Assembly: GCA_009841725.1 (NCBI GenBank)
Contig: VYGS01000024.1
Span: 1-51,226 of the forward strand
Length of the DNA: 51,226 nt
Direction: 5' to 3'
Origin: Gammaproteobacteria bacterium
GTDB taxonomy: Bacteria; Pseudomonadota; Gammaproteobacteria; Arenicellales; Poriferihabitantaceae
Shown: positions 27,437 to 51,226 of the stretch, in pieces
How positions within the stretch are numbered: the first letter of the stretch is position 1
Layout: each line of letters begins with the position of its first letter
Translations under genes and position numbers: made by a program
Notes under the pieces: model-generated
Databases searched by the model: none
Told to the model about the DNA's origin: nothing
The model's input: the letters and a program-made list of their open reading frames with translations, nothing else

Positions 27437-28345
27437 TCAATTTCCCGAAGATTTGGATTGTCTGGCAAGGCTTACCCGGGACATCACCGGACGGTCGAGC
27501 AGGGCGCAGACGGTTCGGCCTGCGGTGATCAGAAGGTCCAGGTCGATGCCGTGGCGGATGCCCATTCCGTCAAGCATGTAGACCACGTCCTCGGTGGCCA
27601 CGTTGCCGCTTGCTCCGCGCGCATACGGACAGCCGCCCAGACCGGCGACGGACGAGTCTATCACTGAAACTCCGATCTGCAGCGCGATCAGGATGTTCGA
27701 CAGCGCCTGCCCGTAGGTATCATGAAAATGCACGGCGAGATTGTCAAGGGGAATCGCGGATGCCACGGTCTCGATCAGCGCCAGGGTCGCATTCGGGGTT
27801 CCGGTGCCGATCGTGTCGCCGAGGGATATTTCATAACATCCCATGTCCGAAAGGCGCTTCGCGACCTCCAGCACGCTGCCGGGCGGCACGGCACCCTCGT
27901 ACGGACAGCCGAGCACGCAGGAGATGTACCCTCTTGTCCTGATGCCACGGGACGAGGCCTTCTCCGCCACGGCCGAGAAGCGCTCGAGGCTCTGCTCGAT
28001 GCTGCAATTGATGTTTCGCAGGCTGAACGTTTCCGAGGCCGCCGCGAACACCGCGATTTCCCGGGCACCGGCATCCAGGGCGTTCTCGAGGCCGCGCATG
28101 TTGGGAACGAGGACGGGATAGCCGATTCCGGCATTATGGTCCAGCCGGGCCAGAACGCGGTCCGTTTCCGCCATCTGGGGAACGCGGTCCGCTCGGACGA
28201 AGCTGCCTGCCTCGATGTGCCTGAGGCCGCATTGTGCGAGATCGCGGATGAGGGCAACGCGGTCCGGAACCCCGAGAGCGGTCGGTTCATTCTGCAACCC
28301 GTCCCGGGGGCCGACCTCGACAATTCTGACCGACTCGGGGATCAT
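27437..28345 (-). CDS. liuE: Hydroxymethylglutaryl-CoA lyase
   Basis: VRIVEVGPRDGLQNE, HFHDTYGQALSNI, GLGGCPYARGASGNVATEDVVYML. Confidence 0.95.
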   Translation of the reverse strand: MIPESVRIVEVGPRDGLQNEPTALGVPDRVALIRDLAQCGLRHIEAGSFVRADRVPQMAETDRVLARLDHNAGIGYPVLVPNMRGLENALDAGAREIAVFAAASETFSLRNINCSIEQSLERFSAVAEKASSRGIRTRGYISCVLGCPYEGAVPPGSVLEVAKRLSDMGCYEISLGDTIGTGTPNATLALIETVASAIPLDNLAVHFHDTYGQALSNILIALQIGVSVIDSSVAGLGGCPYARGASGNVATEDVVYMLDGMGIRHGIDLDLLITAGRTVCALLDRPVMSRVSLARQSKSSGN

Positions 28346-30333
28346 GCTGCCTCGATCAGTACCAGTGGCGTGTTCTCCGTGACGGAGTCGCCGGGGTTGC
28401 AGTGGACCGCTTTCACGGTTCCGGCCGCCGGGGCCAGAATCTCGTGCTCCATTTTCATGGCCTCGACGCACAGGAGTCGGTCTCCCTGCCTGACGGTCCG
28501 GCCCGGCTGAACCTGCACCTCGATCACGGTGCCGGGCATCGGGGAAAACACGGTGCCGCCCGCTCCCGGTCCGTCCCGCTCCGGCCGAGAACTGTCGATC
28601 AGACCGATCCGGTGGTGCCGGCCTTCCATATGGATGAAGACGGCGGTGCTCGTGTTCGCGGCCGATATCCGGGCCCGGTGGCCCGGCCCCGCCACTTCCA
28701 TGCATCCGTTGTCGGCAATCCGCGCGGTCAGGATCACGCCGTCCTCGAACTCGAATCTTCCCTCGTCGAACGTGAAATCGAGATCGTGTCGTTCATTGTC
28801 CATCGCGCATTCGAAGCGATATCGTCGGGGTGGCTGGGTGAACAGGCGGCCGGGAGCCAGCCAGGGCGTGTACCGGTCCGCCTCCCGTGCCTGACGCTCG
28901 CGCTGCGTTTTCAGATCGCCCAGAAACATCCAGGCGCAGGCGCAATGGACGGCAAGAGGATATTGCGGGGCTTGTGCCAGGATATCGTCCAGATGCCGGG
29001 TCAGGTATTGCGTGTCGTAGCGGCCCTTGACAAGATCGGGCAATTCGAGAGTCGACTGCAGGAACCCGGTGTTCGTGGGCACGCCCAGGATCCGGTAGCG
29101 TCGAAGGGCATCGGCCAGCTTCCGGCGGGCGCCGTCGCGGTCCTTGTCCCAGGCGATCAGCTTCGAGATCATCGGGTCGTAGTGCGGGGTGATCCGGCTG
29201 CCCCGGTCGATTCCGGTGTCGACCCGGATCCGTCCGCCCGGGTCGGCATCGGCAGGATGGTCGATCAGCAGGATGTCACCGGTTGCAGGCAGAAAACCCC
29301 TGCCGGGATTTTCAGCGTATATTCGCGCTTCGATGGCATGGCCGTTCAGCCGGATGTCCTCCTGGGAACACGGAAGCGGTTCCCCGCAGGCGACCCGCAA
29401 CTGCCACTCGACCAGATCCAGTCCGGTTACCATTTCCGTGACCGGGTGCTCGACCTGCAGTCGCGTGTTCATTTCGAGGAAGTAGAAACGGTCCGAATCG
29501 ACCAGAAACTCGATCGTGCCCGCACCGACGTAGTCGATGGCCCGGGTACAGTCGACCGCGGCCCGAGTCATCGAGTTGCGGAGCCTTTCGGACATTCCCG
29601 GAGCCGGGGATTCCTCGATGACCTTCTGATAGCGTCTTTGCATGGAGCAGTCGCGCTCGAACAGGTGGACGGCATTGCCGTGGCTGTCGGAGAAAATCTG
29701 GATCTCGATGTGGCGCGCTGTCGGCATGTACTTTTCAATCAGCACCCGGTCGTCTCCGAACGCGGAGAGGCTTTCCCGTTTTACCGATTCAAGGGACGGA
29801 AGGAAGTCGCCGGACGATGCGACAACCCGCATGCCCTTTCCGCCGCCGCCTGCGGTCGCCTTGATCAGGACCGGGTAGCCTGCCGCTTCGGCATGACGAA
29901 GCAGGGCTTCCGGGTCCTGATCTTCCCCGTCGTATCCGGGAAGCACCGGGACGCCGGCGTCCTGCGCCGCGGAGCGCGCACTGTCCTTCGAGCCCATGAT
30001 GCGTATCGCCTCGGGCCCGGGACCGATGAACACCAGCCCGGCAGCCCGGCAGCGGTCGGCGAATTCAGCGTTCTCGGACAGGAAGCCGTACCCCGGATGG
30101 ATCGCTTCGGCGCCGGATTCGCTGGCCGCCGAAATGATCTTGTCGATGTCCAGATAGCTTTCGGTCGGCGTTGCGCCCCCGAGAGGGATGGCCGAGTCGC
30201 AGGTCCGGGTAAAGAGCGCATTGTGGTCGGGATCCGAATAGACCGACACGGTCAAGACGCCGAGGCGTCGGGCGGTACGGGCGATTCGGCAGGCGATCTC
30301 GCCCCGGTTGGCGATGAGGATTTTTTCGAACAC
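28342..30333 (-). CDS. liuD: Methylcrotonyl-CoA carboxylase, biotin-containing alpha subunit (GTG start)
   Basis: FEKILIANRGEIACRI biotin carboxylase; C-terminal VEAMKMEHEI biotinylation motif. Confidence 0.95.
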   Translation of the reverse strand: MFEKILIANRGEIACRIARTARRLGVLTVSVYSDPDHNALFTRTCDSAIPLGGATPTESYLDIDKIISAASESGAEAIHPGYGFLSENAEFADRCRAAGLVFIGPGPEAIRIMGSKDSARSAAQDAGVPVLPGYDGEDQDPEALLRHAEAAGYPVLIKATAGGGGKGMRVVASSGDFLPSLESVKRESLSAFGDDRVLIEKYMPTARHIEIQIFSDSHGNAVHLFERDCSMQRRYQKVIEESPAPGMSERLRNSMTRAAVDCTRAIDYVGAGTIEFLVDSDRFYFLEMNTRLQVEHPVTEMVTGLDLVEWQLRVACGEPLPCSQEDIRLNGHAIEARIYAENPGRGFLPATGDILLIDHPADADPGGRIRVDTGIDRGSRITPHYDPMISKLIAWDKDRDGARRKLADALRRYRILGVPTNTGFLQSTLELPDLVKGRYDTQYLTRHLDDILAQAPQYPLAVHCACAWMFLGDLKTQRERQAREADRYTPWLAPGRLFTQPPRRYRFECAMDNERHDLDFTFDEGRFEFEDGVILTARIADNGCMEVAGPGHRARISAANTSTAVFIHMEGRHHRIGLIDSSRPERDGPGAGGTVFSPMPGTVIEVQVQPGRTVRQGDRLLCVEAMKMEHEILAPAAGTVKAVHCNPGDSVTENTPLVLIEAA

Positions 30334-30341
30334 GGCGGCCG

Positions 30342-31949
30342 CTACATTCTGAATATCCCGAAGCGGGTTTCGGGTATCGGCGCATTCAGGGCGGCGGAGA
30401 TGCCGAGCGCCAGGACCCGGCGGGTGTCGCGGGGATCGATGATGCCGTCGTCCCACAGCCTGGCGCTGGCGTAATAGGGATGGCCCTGGGTTTCGTACTG
30501 CTCCCGTATCGGTTGCCTGAATGCATCCTGTTCGGATTCGGACCAGGTTTCACCCCGGGCCTGCTTGGCATCAAGCCGAATCTGTGTCAGCACGTTCGAG
30601 GCCTGCTCGCCGCCCATCACCGAAATCCGGGCATTCGGCCACATCCACAGAAACCGCGCCCCGAAGGCCCGTCCGCACATGGCGTAGTTGCCGGCGCCGA
30701 AACTGCCGCCGATCACCACGGTGAATTTGGGAACCCGGGCGCAGGAGACGGCGGCGACCATCTTCGCGCCGTCCTTGGCGATACCGCCCGACTCGTACTT
30801 CCTGCCAACCATGAATCCGGTGATATTCTGCAGGAAGATCAGGGGGATCTTTCTCTGGCAGCACAATTCGATGAAGTGAGTGCCTTTCAGGGCCGATTCG
30901 GAAAACAGGATGCCGTTGTTGGCGACGATTCCGACCGGATACCCGTGCAGGCGGGCAAAGCCGCACACCAGGGTGGTTCCGTATCCGGCCTTGAACTCGT
31001 CGAAATCGCTGGCGTCGACGATGCGGGCGATCACCTCCCGGATGTCGAACGGCTTGCGGGAATCCTCGGGCACGATGCCCAGCAGTTCGCCTGACGGGTA
31101 GGCCGGCTCCCGGGGAGGCTCGAACGACAGGTCCGGCGACTTGCTTCGGCGCATGTTGGCGATGACTCGGCGGGCAAGCTCCAGCGCGTGCCGGTCGTTT
31201 TCGGCGACATGATCGACCACGCCGGAGACGGTTGCATGGACCTGCGCTCCGCCCAGCTCTTCGGCGGTCACCTCCTCACCGGTGGCCGCCTTGACGAGGG
31301 GAGGGCCGCCCAGGAAGATCGTGCCCTGATTGCGGACGATGATACTTTCGTCGCACATGGCGGGAATGTAGGCGCCTCCGGCCGTGCAGCTACCCATCGT
31401 GACCGCGACCTGGGGGATGCCTGCCGCGGACAGGTTCGCCTGGTTGTAGAAAATCCTGCCGAAATGATCCCGGTCCGGGAACACCTCGTCCTGCAGGGGA
31501 AGGAAGGCGCCGCCCGAGTCCACCAGATAGACGCAGGGCAGGCGGTTTTCCAGCGCGATGTCCTGCGCCCTGAGATGCTTCTTGACGGTGATGGGGTAAT
31601 AGGTGCCCCCCTTGACCGTGGCATCGTTGGCGACAATCATGCATTCGAGGCCGCAGATGCGGCCGATACCGGTGACGATGCCGCCTGCAGCCACTTCGCC
31701 GCCGTACATGTCCCAGCCGGCGAACGGGGACAGTTCCAGGAATTCGGTATCCGGATCAATGAGCGCGCTGATCCGATCCCGGACCAGCAGCTTGCCGCGC
31801 TCGGTGTGCTTTCGCCGCGCTGATTCACTGCCGCCGTGCATGATGCCGCTCAGGCAGTCGTGAAAATCGCCCACCCTGGCCTGCATGGCCCGGACGTTGG
31901 CAAGAAATTCCCCGGAGGCGGCCTGGAGGTTGCTGCGAATGACGGCCAT
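30342..31949 (-). CDS. liuB: Methylcrotonyl-CoA carboxylase carboxyltransferase (beta) subunit
   Basis: [56 protein letters not shown]. Confidence 0.96.
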
Positions 31950-31965
31950 GGATTCCCGATCCCGC

Positions 31966-33153
31966 TCAGCAGCGTTCCACGGCCATCGCGGTGGCCTCGC
32001 CGCCCCCGATACACAGCGAGACAACGCCTTTCTTGAACGAGTGGTCTTCCAGCGCCGAGATCAGGGTGGTGAGAATGCGGGCCCCGGAAGCGCCGATCGG
32101 ATGACCGAGTGCGCAGGCGCCGCCGCGAATGTTCATCCTGTCCGCTTCGATGCCGAGCTCCTCCATGGCCGCCATGGTCACGACCGCGAAGGCTTCGTTG
32201 ACCTCGAACAGGTCGACATCCCCGATCGACCAGCCCGCCCGTTCCAGAACACTCCGGATTGCCCCCACGGGGGCGGTCGTGAACCAGGATGGATCCTGTG
32301 CATGGGTTGCGTGGGAGACGATGCGGGCCAGGGGGTCGAGCCCCTTGGCGACGGCCGTCGACTCGAGCATCAGCAACAGGGCGGAAGCTCCGTCGGAAAT
32401 CGAGCTCGAATTGGCGGGGGTGACCGTGCCGTTCTGGCGGAAAGCGGGCTTGAGGTGCGGGATCCGGTCGATGTTGGCGGCAAATGGCTGCTCGTCCTTG
32501 TCCACGACGGTTTCTCCCTTGCGCGTGCGCACGGTCACGGGCGCGATCTCGCCGTCGAACAGACCGTTGTCGCTGGCGGACCGGGCCCGTTCAAGGGACC
32601 GGATCGCAAACTCGTCCTGCTTCTCGCGCGTGAAGCCGTACCGGTCGGCGCAGAGTTCGGCAAAGCAGCCCATCAGCTGGCCTTTCTGGTAGGCGTCCTC
32701 GAGGCCGTCGTGAAACATGTGGTCAAGCACCTGTCCATGGCCCATTCGCAGGCCGGAGCGGGCCCTGGGCAGCAGATAGGGAGCGTTGGTCATGCTTTCC
32801 ATGCCGCCCGCGATCATGATCCGGTTGGTTCCGGCGATCAGCAGGTCGTGTGCCAGCATGACGGCCTTCATTCCCGAACCGCACATCTTGTTGATCGTGG
32901 TGCAGTTCGCCGACAGCGCCAGCCCGCCTCCGAGTGCTGCCTGCCGTGCGGGAGCCTGTCCCTGTCCGGCCATCAGCACGTTGCCCATGATGACTTCCTC
33001 GATCCGCTTGCTTGCAAGGCCGGACCGTCTGAGTGCGGCACGGATGGCAACGGCGCCGAGCTCACTGGCGCCGAGTTCGCCGAAGCAGCCCTGGAATCCG
33101 CCCATCGGAGTGCGGGCGCACGAGACGATGACGACCGGATCTTGACTCGACAT
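31966..33153 (-). CDS. Acetyl-CoA C-acetyltransferase (thiolase)
   Basis: [14 protein letters not shown] catalytic Cys, [33 protein letters not shown]. Confidence 0.95.
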
Positions 33154-34313
33154 CACCGGCCTTCCTCGAAGAGTTCGCGACCGATCAGCATCCGGCGGAT
33201 TTCGGAGGTTCCGGCGCCGATCTCGTACAGCTTTGCGTCCCGCAGCAGCCGGCCCGTGGGGTATTCGTTGATGTATCCGTTTCCGCCGAGGGCCTGGATC
33301 GCCTCGAGGGCCATCCAGGTGGCCTTTTCGGCACAGTACAGGATCGATCCCGCCGCATCCTTGCGGGTGGTTTCGCCATGATCGCACGCCCTGGCGACCG
33401 CGTAGCCGTAGGCGCGGCAGGCGTTCATGGTGGAATACATATCCGCCAGCTTGCCCTGCATCATCTGGAAGGTTCCGATCGGCTGCCCGAACTGCTTGCG
33501 CTCGTGGACGTAGGGCACGACAATGTCCATGCAGCGCCGCATGATTCCAAGGGGCCCGCCGGACAGCACCGCCCGCTCGTAATCCAGCCCGCTCATCAGG
33601 ACCCCGACGCCTTCGTTCTCCCGGCCCAGCAGGTTCTCGGTCGGAACCTCGACGTTCTCGAATATCAACTCGCCCGTGTTGGAGCCGCGCATTCCGAGCT
33701 TGTCGAGCTTGATTCCGGAACGAAAGCCGAAATCCCGCTCCACGACAAAGGCCGATATGCCCCGGGAGCCGGCGTTGCGGTCGGTTTTCGCATACACGAC
33801 GACAATGTCGGCATCGGGGCCGTTGGTGATCCACATCTTGGTGCCGTTCAGCACGTAGACGTTTCCCTTGCGCTCCGCGTGCATCCTCAGGCTGACGATG
33901 TCCGAACCGGAGCCGGGTTCCGACATGGCCAGTGCCCCGACCTGCTCCCCGCTGATCAGGCCGGGCAGGTACTTTTCGATCTGCGCGTCGGTGCCGTTGC
34001 GCCGGATCTGGTTGACGCACAGATTCGAATGGGCGCCGTAGCTCAATCCGACAGACGCCGAGGCACGGCTGATTTCCTCCATGGCCACGACATGGGCCAG
34101 GTATCCCATTCCGGATCCTCCGAAGTTCTCGGGAACGGTGATGCCGAGCAGTCCCATGTCCCCGAATTTTTGCCAGAGATGGGAGGGGAATTCGTTGCTT
34201 CGGTCGATTTCGTCGGCGATCGGCAGGATCTCCTGTTCCGCGAAAGACCAGACGGACTGTCTGAGCAGATCGATGTCCTCGCCGAGATGATAGTTGAGCG
34301 AACTGTAATTCAT
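33153..34313 (-). CDS. liuA: Isovaleryl-CoA dehydrogenase
   Basis: [69 protein letters not shown]. Confidence 0.95.
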
Positions 34314-34356: not shown

Positions 34357-34378
34357 CTTACGTTAACGTAAACGTAAG
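34357..34378. promoter_or_regulatory. Putative LiuR-type MerR operator CTTACGTTAACGTAAACGTAAG
   Basis: 22 bp, symmetric at 20 of 22 positions; 44 bp upstream of liuA; shares ACGTAAACGTAA with the site at 50469. Confidence 0.7.
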
Positions 34379-34506
34379 ATAATTTCAATACGTCGGAATG
34401 TCGATTTGGCCTCATGCAACGATCCGCTGTCTGGACGACATCGGTCCTTGCAAAAGCCGGCGGGGATAACCGCGAATCCCCGCAATCCGGGAGTCGGGTG
34501 CCGTTC

Positions 34507-43736: not shown

Positions 43737-44531
43737 ATGCAATACCGGGACATCCGCCTCGACATTGACGGGCGCAATGTGGCCTGGCTGACGCTGGACC
43801 GCGAGGAAAAGCACAACGCGATGGGAAGCCGCATGATGCGGGAAATCCTCAAGGCCTGCGAGGACATCTCGAAGAACGGCGCAATTCGGGCCGTGGTTCT
43901 GACCGGATCCGGGGAGCGGAGCTTCTCGGCCGGTGCCGATCTTGGATGGATGCGCGAGAATTTCGAGCGAAGCCGGGACGAGCGCATTGCCGAGAGCGGC
44001 GTGCTCGCGGAGATGCTCGAAGCCTTCAATGCCCTGGACAAGGTCACCATTGCCAGGGTGAACGGCCAGGCCTATGCCGGCGGCGTCGGCCTGATCTGCG
44101 TGTGCGATATCGCGATCAGCGTACGGACCGCGCGATTCTCCCTGACTGAAACCCGACTGGGACTGACTCCGGCCAATATCTCCCCCTACGTGCTGGCCCG
44201 ACTCGGGATCAGCAATTCACGCAGAATATTGCTGAATGCGCATTTTTTTGAAGCGGACGAGGCGGTCCAGTTCGGCCTCGTCCACAAGAGCGTCGAGCCC
44301 GGAGACCTTGATGCGGCCGTGGAATCGGAAATACGAAGCTGTCTGGATTGCGCCCCGGGCGCGATCGCGACGACCAAGGAACTGATCCGGCGGGTCAGCA
44401 CGCAGACCCATGCGCAGAACCGGGAGTATACGGCCCGGATGCTGGCCGATGCCTGGGAGACCGAAGAGGCCCAGACCGGGATCGGCGGTTTTTTCGAGAA
44501 GAAGCCCCCGCCCTGGAAGCCGAACGGATAA
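43737..44531 (+). CDS. liuC: Enoyl-CoA hydratase/isomerase, probable methylglutaconyl-CoA hydratase
   Basis: SFSAGADLGWMRE, GQAYAGGVGLICVCDIAIS, ETRLGLTPANISPYVLARLG, resembling AUH/LiuC. Confidence 0.88.
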   Translation: MQYRDIRLDIDGRNVAWLTLDREEKHNAMGSRMMREILKACEDISKNGAIRAVVLTGSGERSFSAGADLGWMRENFERSRDERIAESGVLAEMLEAFNALDKVTIARVNGQAYAGGVGLICVCDIAISVRTARFSLTETRLGLTPANISPYVLARLGISNSRRILLNAHFFEADEAVQFGLVHKSVEPGDLDAAVESEIRSCLDCAPGAIATTKELIRRVSTQTHAQNREYTARMLADAWETEEAQTGIGGFFEKKPPPWKPNG

Positions 44532-46241: not shown

Positions 46242-47234
46242 TCAGCATCCCGGTTGCCGGAGTGCCTCGTCGACGCGGAGCCAGTGTTCCGTTTCGCAGG
46301 GAATCCCGAGACGCAGCCACTTGGGACGATTCGGAAAAACGCGGGGCCAGACCCGATGAGAAATCAGCCGCTTCCTTGCCTCGTCCATGTTGTCGATTTC
46401 ATATGTGCGAAACAGCGGCGTGCCGCCCACCAATCGCCAGCCGGCGCGAAGGGCCAGCCGGTCGAGACGGGACGCGTCGCGTTCCAGTCGGCGAATCGTC
46501 TGGATGCGCCAGGCGTCGTCCGAGAGGGTCGTGGTGGCCACGGCAATCGCTGGCCCGGATACCGGCCAGGGACCGGCCAGCCTGCGCAGGGCATCGACTG
46601 TGCCGCTTCCCGACATGACGAAACCCAACCGGATTCCGGCAAGACCGTAGAACTTGCCGAAGGACCGCTGCACCAGGAGCGATGCGGTTTCCGTTCCGAT
46701 GCGGGATGCCACCGACAGGCCCGGGGCGACATCGCAGAAACTCTCGTCCACGACCAGCAGGCCGACGCGATAGGACAATTCCACAAGCGCGTCCGGTTCA
46801 TGGCGCTGTCCGTCCGGATTGTTGGGGTTCACGACCACGGCCGTATCGGCTCCCGCCAGCCCCTCAAGCGTGGAGACGTGCTCCACCCGCCAGTCGGCTG
46901 CCTCGAAGGCTGCGGCATGCTCGTTGTATGTGGGGCCCAGGATACGCGCCTGACCGGCCGGCTTGAGACGGGGGATGAGTTGGATGGCGGACTGGACACC
47001 GGACATGGCGAGCGTGCAGCCCCCGGTTCCATAAGCTCGGCCTGCCGCCGTTTCGAGCTTGTCGATGCTGTTTCGGGTTGGCAGGGCGGACCAGGCATGG
47101 TCGGGTATGGCGGGAAGCGGATAGGGCCGGGGGTTGATCCCGGTCGACAGGTCGATCCAGGTTTTCCGTGAGCCGCCGTGCAGTCGGATGGCCTCATCCA
47201 GATTACCGCCGTGATCAGGCATGGGCCGCATCAT
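46242..47234 (-). CDS. cobC: Threonine-phosphate decarboxylase-like PLP enzyme, cobalamin pathway
   Basis: HGGNLDEAIRLHGGSRKTWIDLSTGINPRPYPLP, NPNNPDGQRHEPD, RSFGKFYGLAGIRLGF; 4-bp overlap with cobD. Confidence 0.92.
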   Translation of the reverse strand: MMRPMPDHGGNLDEAIRLHGGSRKTWIDLSTGINPRPYPLPAIPDHAWSALPTRNSIDKLETAAGRAYGTGGCTLAMSGVQSAIQLIPRLKPAGQARILGPTYNEHAAAFEAADWRVEHVSTLEGLAGADTAVVVNPNNPDGQRHEPDALVELSYRVGLLVVDESFCDVAPGLSVASRIGTETASLLVQRSFGKFYGLAGIRLGFVMSGSGTVDALRRLAGPWPVSGPAIAVATTTLSDDAWRIQTIRRLERDASRLDRLALRAGWRLVGGTPLFRTYEIDNMDEARKRLISHRVWPRVFPNRPKWLRLGIPCETEHWLRVDEALRQPGC

Positions 47235-48166
47235 GAATTGAAGACAAGAACGAGCAGGGCCAGCATGCCCGCCATCCCTGCCAGGGCCCGGACATACAGT
47301 GCAAGTGCTTGTCGGATTTCTTTCGCTCCGGGGTCGGGCGAATTCTCATTCAGCCACGGTTCCCTGTCAAGACGGCTGCCGTAGACCCGGGGTCCGCAAA
47401 GCCGGATTCCGAGCGATCCCGCCATGGCTGCCTCAGGCCAGCCGGCATTGGGAGAGCGATGGTGCCGCGAGTCCTTCATCATGCGGCGCAAGGCCGGTCC
47501 GGGCCGGGATGAGACGGCTGCGAACAGAAGCCCCGTCAACCTTGCCGGAATATAGTTGACGATATCGTCCAGCCGGGCTGATGCCCAGCCGAACGCCGCA
47601 TGACGCTCGTTGCGGTGACCGATCATTGAATCGAGGGTGTTGATCGCCTTGTAGGCAACGATACCCGGCAGTCCCAGAATTGTTCCCCAGAAAATCGGTG
47701 CGACGACACCGTCCGAAGTGTTCTCGGCCAGGCTCTCGAGCGCGGCGCGGGCAACGCCGGCCCCGTCCAGGCTCGACGTATCGCGCCCAACGATCCGGGA
47801 GACGGCCTCTTTCGCCTCGTCCAGGCGGCCTTGGGAGAGAGGGTCAATCACGGCGTCGACATGCTCGTGCAGGGATCGTGCTGCGAGCAGGGGCCAGCTC
47901 AGGCAGGCTCCGAGTAGCAGGCCCGCAAGGTTCCCGGGCAGGGCGCTCTGGATCAGGAAGGCGGGGGTGACGGCAATCAGCAGAACGGTCAGCAAGGACA
48001 GGATTCCGGCTGTCCGGCGAGCCGGACCGGCATGCAGCCCGACATTCAGACGGCTGTCGAGCAGCGAGATCAGGCGGCCGAGCCAGGATACCGGATGGCC
48101 GATCCGCGCGTAGAGCCTGTTGGGCCAGCCCACCATGGCATCGATGGCCAGAGCCGCCAGCATCAT
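47231..48166 (-). CDS. cobD: Adenosylcobinamide-phosphate synthase
   Basis: AIDAMVGWPNRLYARIGHPVSWLGRLI, GRDTSSLDGAGVARAALESLAENTSDGVVAPIFW; the 48445 start overlaps the neighbouring gene and is unlikely. Confidence 0.94.
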   Translation of the reverse strand: MMLAALAIDAMVGWPNRLYARIGHPVSWLGRLISLLDSRLNVGLHAGPARRTAGILSLLTVLLIAVTPAFLIQSALPGNLAGLLLGACLSWPLLAARSLHEHVDAVIDPLSQGRLDEAKEAVSRIVGRDTSSLDGAGVARAALESLAENTSDGVVAPIFWGTILGLPGIVAYKAINTLDSMIGHRNERHAAFGWASARLDDIVNYIPARLTGLLFAAVSSRPGPALRRMMKDSRHHRSPNAGWPEAAMAGSLGIRLCGPRVYGSRLDREPWLNENSPDPGAKEIRQALALYVRALAGMAGMLALLVLVFNS

Positions 48167-48225
48167 GGAGCAATACACGGGCCGATCGATTCCAGCCGGG
48201 GGACGTAGCGGCAGACTCGGTTCGA

Positions 48226-50025
48226 CTATGCCGGGGTGTCGAAGATGTCGGGATCCATGCCTGAGACCGTGTCCGCTCCGTTGTGGATGATGTTGTCGTA
48301 GAGTCGCATCTTCGGCATGTCGTGATCGAAAAAGAATGTCGCGGTGATCACCTTGTTCCGGTAGAAGCTGTCCGTGCCGTTCTCCAGGGAAAGGCTGATC
48401 TCGGCGGCCTTGGCCAGGTGCCATCCGCAACAGACCGTGCCCCAAAGCTTGAGGTAGGCGTCGCAGACGGCCGCGGGCTTGCCCGCGCCTTCCGTGTTCA
48501 GGTCCAGGATCTTTCCGACGGCGGATTCGAGAATGTCCAGCGCTTCATTCATGACGCCCTTCATCCCTGCCAGACGGGGATTTCCGATCGAGTCGATGTC
48601 TTCGCGCATGTGCCGGATGACCGTATGTGCGGTCTTGCCGCCGTCCCGGATGGTCTTGCGGCCGACCAGATCAAGCGCCTGAATGCCGTTGGTGCCCTCG
48701 TAGATCGGCGTGATCCGCTGATCCCGATAGTATTGTGCCGCGCCGGTCTCCTCGATGAATCCCATGCCACCGTGGACCTGCAGCGCCAGCGAGACATTTT
48801 CAAGCCCGAAGTCGGTCATGCTGGCCTTGACGATCGGCGTCAGGATTTCGGCCATAGCCCGGTTGAATTCGCGGATTTCCGGATCAGGATGCCCGAGGCT
48901 CTTGTCGATGGAGGCCCCGAGCAACAGTCCGATCGAGCGCAGCCCCTCGATCCGGCTCTTCTGCACCATCAGCATGCGCTTCACGTCCGGATGGTTGATG
49001 ATCGACACCGGGCCGGCGGCATCGTCCGGCGCGGCGCCCTGCAATCGCTCCCGGGCGTATGCGACGGCGTGCTGGTAGGCCCGCTCCGACACGGCGTTTC
49101 CCTCGACGCCGACCGCAAGCCGGGCGATGTTCATCATCGTGAACATGTAGTGCATGCCCTTGTTCGCCTCGCCAACCAGGTAGCCGACCGCGCCTTTCGG
49201 GTTCCGGTATTTCCCCGTGCCGTATCCGAGCACGGCGGTCGGGCTGGCGTGGATGCCGAGCTTGTGCTCCAGTGAAATGGTCTCGACATCGTTGCGGACT
49301 GTCCAGTTGCCCTCGGCATCGGGCAGGAATTTCGGAACGATGAACAGCGAAATGCCCTTGATGCCTTCCGGGGCATCGGGCATGCGCGCCAGGACCAGAT
49401 GTATGATGTTCTCGGTCAGGTCGTGGTCGCCGTAGGTGATGAAGATCTTCTGCCCCTGGACCAGATAGTGATCGCCGTTCGGGGTGGCGGTGGTCTTGAC
49501 CAGAGCCAGATCCGAGCCGGCATGGGCTTCGGTCAGGTTCATGGTTCCCGTCCAGTTTCCATGCACCAGGTTCGGCAGGAACGTGTCTTTCTGTTCTTCG
49601 GAGCCGTGCAGTTCGATCGCCTCGACGGCAGCCTGCGTGAGCAGCGGGCACAGGGCGAACGACATGTTGGCCGAATGCCAGATTTCCAGAACGGCGGTCG
49701 CGATGAGCCACGGCAGTCCCTGGCCGCCCCGTTCAGGCTTGAAAGGCAATCCGTTCCAGCCTCCCTCGACGAACGTCCGGTAGGCGTCCTTCCAGCCGTC
49801 CGCTGTCAGGACCCGGTCATTCTCGAGACGGACCCCCTGAAGATCGCCGATCCGGTTCAACGGGTCGAGAACCTCCTCGCCTATTCTGCCGGCTTCCTCG
49901 ATAATCGCCTGGGCGAGCTCGAGGTTCGCTTCCTCGTATCCCGGCAGGGCGGATACGCCTTCAATGTCCGCCAGGTGTTCAATTGCGAACAGTAAGTCCC
50001 GTGCGGGGGCCTTGTAGTTGCTCAT
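48226..50025 (-). CDS. Acyl-CoA dehydrogenase with extended C-terminus, DmdC-like
   Basis: PFKPERGGQGLPWLIATAVLEIWHSANMSFALCPLLTQAAVEAIELHG, GTMNLTEAHAGSDLALVKTTATPNGDHYLVQGQKIFITYGDHDLTENIIHLVLAR. Confidence 0.92.
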   Translation of the reverse strand: MSNYKAPARDLLFAIEHLADIEGVSALPGYEEANLELAQAIIEEAGRIGEEVLDPLNRIGDLQGVRLENDRVLTADGWKDAYRTFVEGGWNGLPFKPERGGQGLPWLIATAVLEIWHSANMSFALCPLLTQAAVEAIELHGSEEQKDTFLPNLVHGNWTGTMNLTEAHAGSDLALVKTTATPNGDHYLVQGQKIFITYGDHDLTENIIHLVLARMPDAPEGIKGISLFIVPKFLPDAEGNWTVRNDVETISLEHKLGIHASPTAVLGYGTGKYRNPKGAVGYLVGEANKGMHYMFTMMNIARLAVGVEGNAVSERAYQHAVAYARERLQGAAPDDAAGPVSIINHPDVKRMLMVQKSRIEGLRSIGLLLGASIDKSLGHPDPEIREFNRAMAEILTPIVKASMTDFGLENVSLALQVHGGMGFIEETGAAQYYRDQRITPIYEGTNGIQALDLVGRKTIRDGGKTAHTVIRHMREDIDSIGNPRLAGMKGVMNEALDILESAVGKILDLNTEGAGKPAAVCDAYLKLWGTVCCGWHLAKAAEISLSLENGTDSFYRNKVITATFFFDHDMPKMRLYDNIIHNGADTVSGMDPDIFDTPA

Positions 50026-50037
50026 CGCTGTATCCGG

Positions 50038-50439
50038 TCAAGATGGATGGGTGAATTTCTCAAGGGTGTTCAGCTGGATTTCCAGCTTCCTGGCGACCTC
50101 GTCCATGTCGGCCAGCGTATTGACGATATCGGTTTGTTTCTGCCTGAGTTCCTTGCGGTGCGTCTTGATGGTATCGAGCACGTATCGCAACTGCGCGATC
50201 TCGTTCGGCTGGTTGTCGTAAAGCTCCATGGTGGTCCTGATTTCCGCAAGCGAGAACCCGAGCCGCTTGCCGCGCAGGATCAGCTTGAGCCGGACCTTGT
50301 CCCTGTCGTCGTAGATGCGACGGTTTTTCTTCCTTTTCGGCGAGAGCAGTCCTTCCGACTCGTAGAACCGGATGGTTCTCGATGTCAAATCGTAATGCTT
50401 GGCCAAATCCGATATAGTATACGTTGATGTGCTGGACAT
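50038..50439 (-). CDS. liuR: MerR family transcriptional regulator, LiuR-like
   Basis: YTISDLAKHYDLTSRTIRFYESEGLLSPKRKKNRRIYDDRDKVRLKLILRGKRLGFSLAEI. Confidence 0.85.
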   Translation of the reverse strand: MSSTSTYTISDLAKHYDLTSRTIRFYESEGLLSPKRKKNRRIYDDRDKVRLKLILRGKRLGFSLAEIRTTMELYDNQPNEIAQLRYVLDTIKTHRKELRQKQTDIVNTLADMDEVARKLEIQLNTLEKFTHPS

Positions 50440-50468: not shown

Positions 50469-50490
50469 TTGACGCTTACGTAAACGTAAT
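50469..50490. promoter_or_regulatory. Putative LiuR-type MerR operator TTGACGCTTACGTAAACGTAAT
   Basis: Palindromic core TTACGTAA extendable to ACGCTTACGTAAACGT (14 of 16 symmetric), between divergent merR and icmF; shares ACGTAAACGTAA with 34357..34378. Confidence 0.7.
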
Positions 50491-50535
50491 GTATCATCAA
50501 TAATCCCGAAAATTCAACTCCATCCGGGGGCAGAA

Positions 50536-51226
50536 ATGGGAAAGCCCGAGCGCTCAGAAATCCAGTCGCCGATGGCCATTCAGCCATACGTGCGGTTTGT
50601 CACCGCAGCCAGCCTGTTTGACGGCCACGATGCGGCGATCAACATCATGCGCCGGATTCTCCAGTCCCAGGGCGTGGAAGTCATCCACCTCGGTCATAAC
50701 CGCTCGGTGGAACAGGTTGTCAACGCGGCCCTGCAGGAGGATGTCCACGGCATAGCGATCAGTTCGTATCAGGGCGGACACGTCGAGTATCTCAAGTACA
50801 TGTTCGACATGCTCCGCGAGCGGGGAGGCGAAAGGATTCGGATTTTCGCAGGCGGTGGAGGGGTCATCGTTCCCGAGGAAAAGAGGCTGCTCGAGGAATA
50901 CGGGGTCACACGCATCTACACTCCCGAGGACGGCCAGCACCTCGGCCTGTCCGGGATGATCGAGAACACGATCGAGCTGAGCCGCTTCGATCTGTGCGCC
51001 GATGCGCCGAAAACCCTGAAGCCGGTGGAAAAAGGCGACTTCCGTGCCTTGGCCCGTGCGCTGACTGCCATCGAGAACGGAGCGGCATCCCCCGGTTTCA
51101 TCCGGGAAATCGCCCGTTCTCATTCCGGGATGAAGCAGCCCGCGCCGGTGCTCGGGATCACCGGCACGGGCGGTGCGGGAAAATCCTCCCTGACTGACGA
51201 ACTCGTGCTGCGGTTCAGGCTGGGAT
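50536..51226 (+). CDS. icmF: IcmF, fused isobutyryl-CoA mutase, N-terminal B12-binding and start of G-protein domain (3' end outside window)
   Basis: Own translation: MGKPERSEIQSPMAIQPYVRFVTAASLFDGHDAAINIMRRILQSQGVEVIHLGHNRSVEQVV...VLGITGTGGAGKSSLTDELVLRFRLG; no stop before the window end, so absent from the ORF track. Confidence 0.93.
   Translation, partial: MGKPERSEIQSPMAIQPYVRFVTAASLFDGHDAAINIMRRILQSQGVEVIHLGHNRSVEQVVNAALQEDVHGIAISSYQGGHVEYLKYMFDMLRERGGERIRIFAGGGGVIVPEEKRLLEEYGVTRIYTPEDGQHLGLSGMIENTIELSRFDLCADAPKTLKPVEKGDFRALARALTAIENGAASPGFIREIARSHSGMKQPAPVLGITGTGGAGKSSLTDELVLRFRLG

Follow-up and report, generated by a model that had tools for sequence, protein, structure and literature searches.

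The window, i.e., the whole stretch of 51,226 nucleotides analyzed here, harbors a liu operon with the gene order ivd/liuA, thiolase, liuB, liuD, and liuE, and a liuR-like merR gene divergent from icmF (Table 1). The ivd/liuA product is ~66–77% identical to the products of operator-bordering genes in many named Proteobacteria. Between liuB and liuD, the liu operon (27437–34313) lacks the liuC-like enoyl-CoA hydratase gene that is present in several relatives; a candidate substitute for liuC is an ECH_1 gene at 43737–44531, adjoining an AMP-ligase gene. At the other locus, icmF runs past the window end (51226), where there is a run of N, and is resumed in a different frame of the same contig. 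Because of this frame change, the length of the N gap is not exact; a suspected break in icmF was set aside as an artefact of this run. The acyl-CoA dehydrogenase gene following merR is probably on the merR transcript. Within 47231–50025, merR is followed by this gene and then by a cobD-like cobalamin gene, near the B12-dependent icmF, and this order is common to the congeners.

Table 1. Genes, predicted operators, and promoters of the liu and merR/icmF loci (positions in the window)
Feature	Position	Strand	Remarks
ivd/liuA, isovaleryl-CoA dehydrogenase-like	33153..34313	-	386 aa; first liu gene; assigned by sequence identity
Acetyl-CoA C-acetyltransferase-like, liu operon	31966..33153	-	start codon not fixed
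liuB-like carboxyltransferase subunit	30342..31949	-	
liuD-like biotin carboxylase/biotin carrier subunit	28342..30357	-	start codon not fixed
liuE, hydroxymethylglutaryl-CoA lyase	27437..28369	-	NF004283, 418.7 bits, cut-off 246; start codon not fixed
Acyl-CoA dehydrogenase after merR	48226..50025	-	same order in congeners L082, L085, L087, L089
liuR-like merR gene	50038..50439	-	133 aa; PF13411, PF09278
icmF, fused isobutyryl-CoA mutase, 5′ part	50536..51226	+	NF045497, 306.8 bits over the part present
Predicted LiuR operator, liu operon	34357..34378	.	22-bp inverted repeat, one mismatched pair; dyad centre 34367/34368; ACGT boxes at 34360, 34366, 34372
Predicted LiuR operator, divergent merR/icmF promoter	50469..50490	.	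dyad centre 50479/50480
icmF promoter TTGACG-N17-TATCAT	50469..50497	+	10/12 consensus match
Possible liu promoter TCGACA-N17-TATCTT	34376..34404	-	consensus match only

The merR product matches PF13411 (E = 2.7e-20) and PF09278 (E = 7.5e-15). It has zero cysteines, and hence no metal or Fe-S site of a known kind, and in an NCBIfam equivalog search it reached no cut-off, its scores being far below. In a tree (short alignment, midpoint root), the protein sits with its own genus inside the group of icmF- and ivd-adjacent MerR proteins, with the other LiuR-like rows (89 in all) and apart from the paralogues (97/98). Furthermore, in four relatives (L061, L065, L066, and L080), the MerR orthologue is encoded immediately before ivd. 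The LiuR-like identity assigned in the initial annotation is borne out by this grouping with ivd-adjacent LiuR and by the synteny in relatives. As is characteristic of LiuR, a palindromic site is found ahead of its own gene and ahead of the liu/ivd operon.

The site at liu, CTTACGTTAACGTAAACGTAAG, is an exact match at the position upstream of liuA where it had been annotated, with 43 bp between it and the ATG of ivd/liuA (34313–34311, minus strand). The 12-mer ACGTAAACGTAA is located at 34366–34377 in this site and, as had also been claimed, recurs in the gap between merR and icmF, at 50478–50489. With up to one mismatch, the 12-mer has four matches in the window, all inside the two elements, while 0.01 is expected by chance per window. 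Apart from the shortness of the word, nothing favors a chance recurrence; this expectation and all of the comparative results below stand against it, and conservation in the congeners refutes it, so that its probability is negligible. The element had been described as a palindrome of ACGTnnACGT character. It is indeed palindromic, but, rather than an isolated motif of this kind, three ACGT boxes at 6-bp spacing are found across relatives, forming one dyad of 20–22 bp centred on the middle box, TTACGTTTAC/GTAAACGTAA. The first box of the merR/icmF operator is degenerate (ACGC), and this is the same in the four congeners examined.

The two sites are also unique in the genome. The liu and icmF sites agree with the 20-bp consensus TTACGTTTACGTAAACGTAA at 19/20 and 18/20 positions, respectively; the best unrelated position reaches 13/20, and the maxima of Markov-1 random sequences are 12–14. 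In the genome scanned (2.61 Mb, about 94% complete), exact TTACGTNAACGTAA is found in the two elements only. These two are the only good sites of the genome. Other places with two mismatches (C83, C134, and C145) are no commoner than with the reversed control, and were rejected as operators, each being inside an open reading frame.

The operator at icmF spans the −35 element and most of the 17-bp spacer, with its first box running through TTGACG. The icmF promoter is unchanged in four congeners; in relatives, all icmF sites listed have TTGACG at the same position, and most of those in the family have a TAnnnT-like −10 element at an equal distance. At liu, the −10/−35 assignment is ambiguous: in TCGACA-N17-TATCTT, the −10 element extends to the operator edge, while the alternative TTGAAA-N17-TAACGT has its −35 element at the same place in four out of five species (TTGCAA in the fifth), and the predicted operator overlaps either possible core promoter. 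Since the 17-bp spacing at icmF is normal, repression rather than activation of the MerR type is indicated, and the overlap of the operator with a normally spaced core promoter makes repression the likely mode. A classical MerR-type activator, which remains promoter-bound and untwists the spacer DNA once its ligand binds, would also place its operator between or over the −35 and −10 elements, as MerR, CueR, and SoxR do, and the protein has the domains of the MerR fold. However, both marks of metal- or redox-responsive MerR activators are absent: the protein is cysteine-free, and the spacer at icmF measures 17 bp instead of 19–20 bp, so that no promoter distortion would be needed; 17 bp is also the spacing at several relatives’ icmF promoters. 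In addition, one study (PMC3223726) gives the role of LiuR in Shewanella as that of a repressor. Activation by LiuR is therefore improbable.

Both promoters could be compared in four congeners, in which the liu and icmF operators are each kept while the flanks have diverged; the liu operator there has the form TTACGTTTACGTTAACGTAAGG (GGG in one). Congener G004 has a three-box site on contig C116 and a variant form before merR, and in congener G006 the contig end falls within merR. Of the genomes of 60 relatives, 41 have the strict three-box pattern and 3 its reversed control. When LiuR-like MerR was called at a search threshold of E ≤ 1e-20, the three-box site was found in 40 of the 44 relatives with the protein vs. 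1 of the 16 without it (Fisher p = 1e-9, which overstates independence because the relatives share kinship); the exact site was absent from 4 of the 44. In relatives, the sites adjoin merR and fall at promoters of icmF, ivd-liu, or thiolase genes. The three boxes, kept with their 6-bp phase in these 41 relatives, might be two overlapping operators receiving two dimers under cooperative control, and several sites can be read as two 14-bp palindromes that overlap. On the other hand, the single dyad on the middle box would be of the size for one MerR dimer, judging from known MerR operators, and one box has been lost from the icmF site in this genus. Occupation by two dimers is thus unlikely, and a single dimer per site is preferred.

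The four relatives with merR before ivd belong to another family of the order (f2) and have a compact icmF/merR-ivd-acat-liuB locus. Similarly, in two Cocleimonas MAGs (L134 and L176), merR lies between two sites, of which one precedes ivd and the other icmF. Compared with these, the arrangement in the window looks like such a compact locus split by 16 kb, with a predicted operator at each part.

A search of genome contigs with the MerR protein as a single query gave no confirmed relative, and for this reason the operator was used as a probe: GTDB genomes were scanned with the exact 21-mer TTGACGYTTACGTAAACGTAA and no protein information, which gave at least 118 stretches. Those among the matches listed are mostly of Beta-, Alpha-, and Gammaproteobacteria, plus Kribbella. 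Among the matches listed, 82 of the 121 sites are within 250 bp upstream of a merR, ivd, icmF, or liuB start; positions drawn at random from these loci pass this test in 7.6% of cases. A distance of up to 750 bp from liuR/merR, ivd/liu, or icmF is found for 105/121 sites among the matches listed and for 38% of random positions; because the loci are short and so many random positions pass, this looser test is weak alone and the 250-bp upstream test gives a better control. Especially, 24 out of the 31 icmF sites among the matches listed are in loci without merR, which means that closeness to merR does not account for the icmF link. For example, Cupriavidus plantarum has an icmF site in a merR-free locus and, elsewhere on the same contig, a merR-ivd pair with its own site (L149 and L157).

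The distance of 16 kb between the liu operon and merR would fit sites that belong to another regulator, the proximity of merR being coincidental. This is highly unlikely in view of the co-occurrence of the site and LiuR among the 60 relatives, of the genome’s only other MerR-domain match, which is in a 325-aa frame of a different kind of protein, and of the site-merR adjacency, which holds in Alpha-, Beta-, and Gammaproteobacteria as well as in Kribbella, even if adjacency is partly expected for any autoregulated MerR gene.

There are additional sites beyond the core genes. Some (L130, L165, L148, and L195) precede genes for an SDR dehydrogenase, an indolepyruvate ferredoxin oxidoreductase-family protein, or an ETF beta subunit-like protein, which are possible further LiuR targets. 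In Kribbella (Actinomycetota; L128, L138, L192, and L206), the exact operator lies between an ivd-like acyl-CoA dehydrogenase gene and a LiuR-like merR, which suggests transfer of the regulator and operator between phyla.

Taken together, the 22-mer is very probably the operator of a LiuR-type MerR repressor controlling the liu and divergent merR/icmF promoters. Several results support the original proposal that the distal MerR protein controls liu, icmF, and itself: the sites are unique in the genome, they stand out as footprints among congeners, they occur together with the regulator, the genes are syntenic in relatives, and the blind scan finds the operator at these genes; these comparative data make the regulatory link well supported, as firm as computation can make it. 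From sequence, we infer binding, repression, an effector, and autoregulation of MerR as follows. A dimer of the merR product (50038–50439) would bind the 20–22-bp inverted repeat, consensus TTgACGTTTAC/GTAAACGTaAA, at the liu and merR/icmF promoters. Bound LiuR would shut these promoters off, since in both the operator lies over the −35 or −10 element plus spacer and the spacing is the normal 17 bp. LiuR would be released by some signal from branched-chain catabolism, for which pathway logic suggests, as a plausible guess, an acyl-CoA intermediate; the release would switch on liu, icmF, and merR-acd together.

If this is true, one repressor, acting through a three-box, 22-bp operator in the promoter, would switch both leucine breakdown and the interconversion of valine and butyrate carbon skeletons. 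icmF, encoding the B12-dependent isobutyryl-CoA mutase, may well belong to the core LiuR targets of Gamma- and Betaproteobacteria, a role not remarked on before. To our knowledge, the physiological role of icmF has been little studied outside model enzymology, and a broadly conserved LiuR-icmF link would be the useful part of the finding. Moreover, the window offers a testable regulon of branched-chain catabolism for an uncultured lineage related to sponge symbionts, and the operator consensus appears specific enough for a plain pattern search to find regulon members in large genome sets.

According to two studies (PMC5343134, PMC3223726), LiuR is a MerR-family repressor of Ile/Leu/Val catabolism in Proteobacteria, reconstructed in over 100 genomes, and a third places an ILV box ahead of the LiuR gene and ivd genes of Rhodospirillum rubrum (PMC7238569). 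The system in the window shares with this regulon a small MerR, a palindrome before liuR and ivd/liu, the liu gene set, and synteny in relatives, and is well supported as an ordinary LiuR regulon, a known bacterial circuit, in a sponge-symbiont-like bacterium. It differs in that merR does not head liu but lies 16 kb away from it, in a divergent pair with icmF, in that the genome has two sites only, and in having icmF as a predicted target, a link not mentioned in the available text of the three studies (PMC3223726, PMC5343134, PMC7238569). The LiuR-icmF link was not found in a literature search either, whose scope excluded RegPrecise and Kazakov et al. (2009). With the MerR, CueR, and SoxR activators, the system has in common PF13411, PF09278, and an operator within the promoter spacer; the missing cysteines, the 17-bp spacer, and the absence of any NCBIfam equivalog match above cut-off set it apart from them. 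The icmF loci of Betaproteobacteria (Cupriavidus, Polaromonas, and Limnohabitans) have the same operator ahead of icmF, but there icmF is usually away from merR, whereas here the two genes form a divergent pair.
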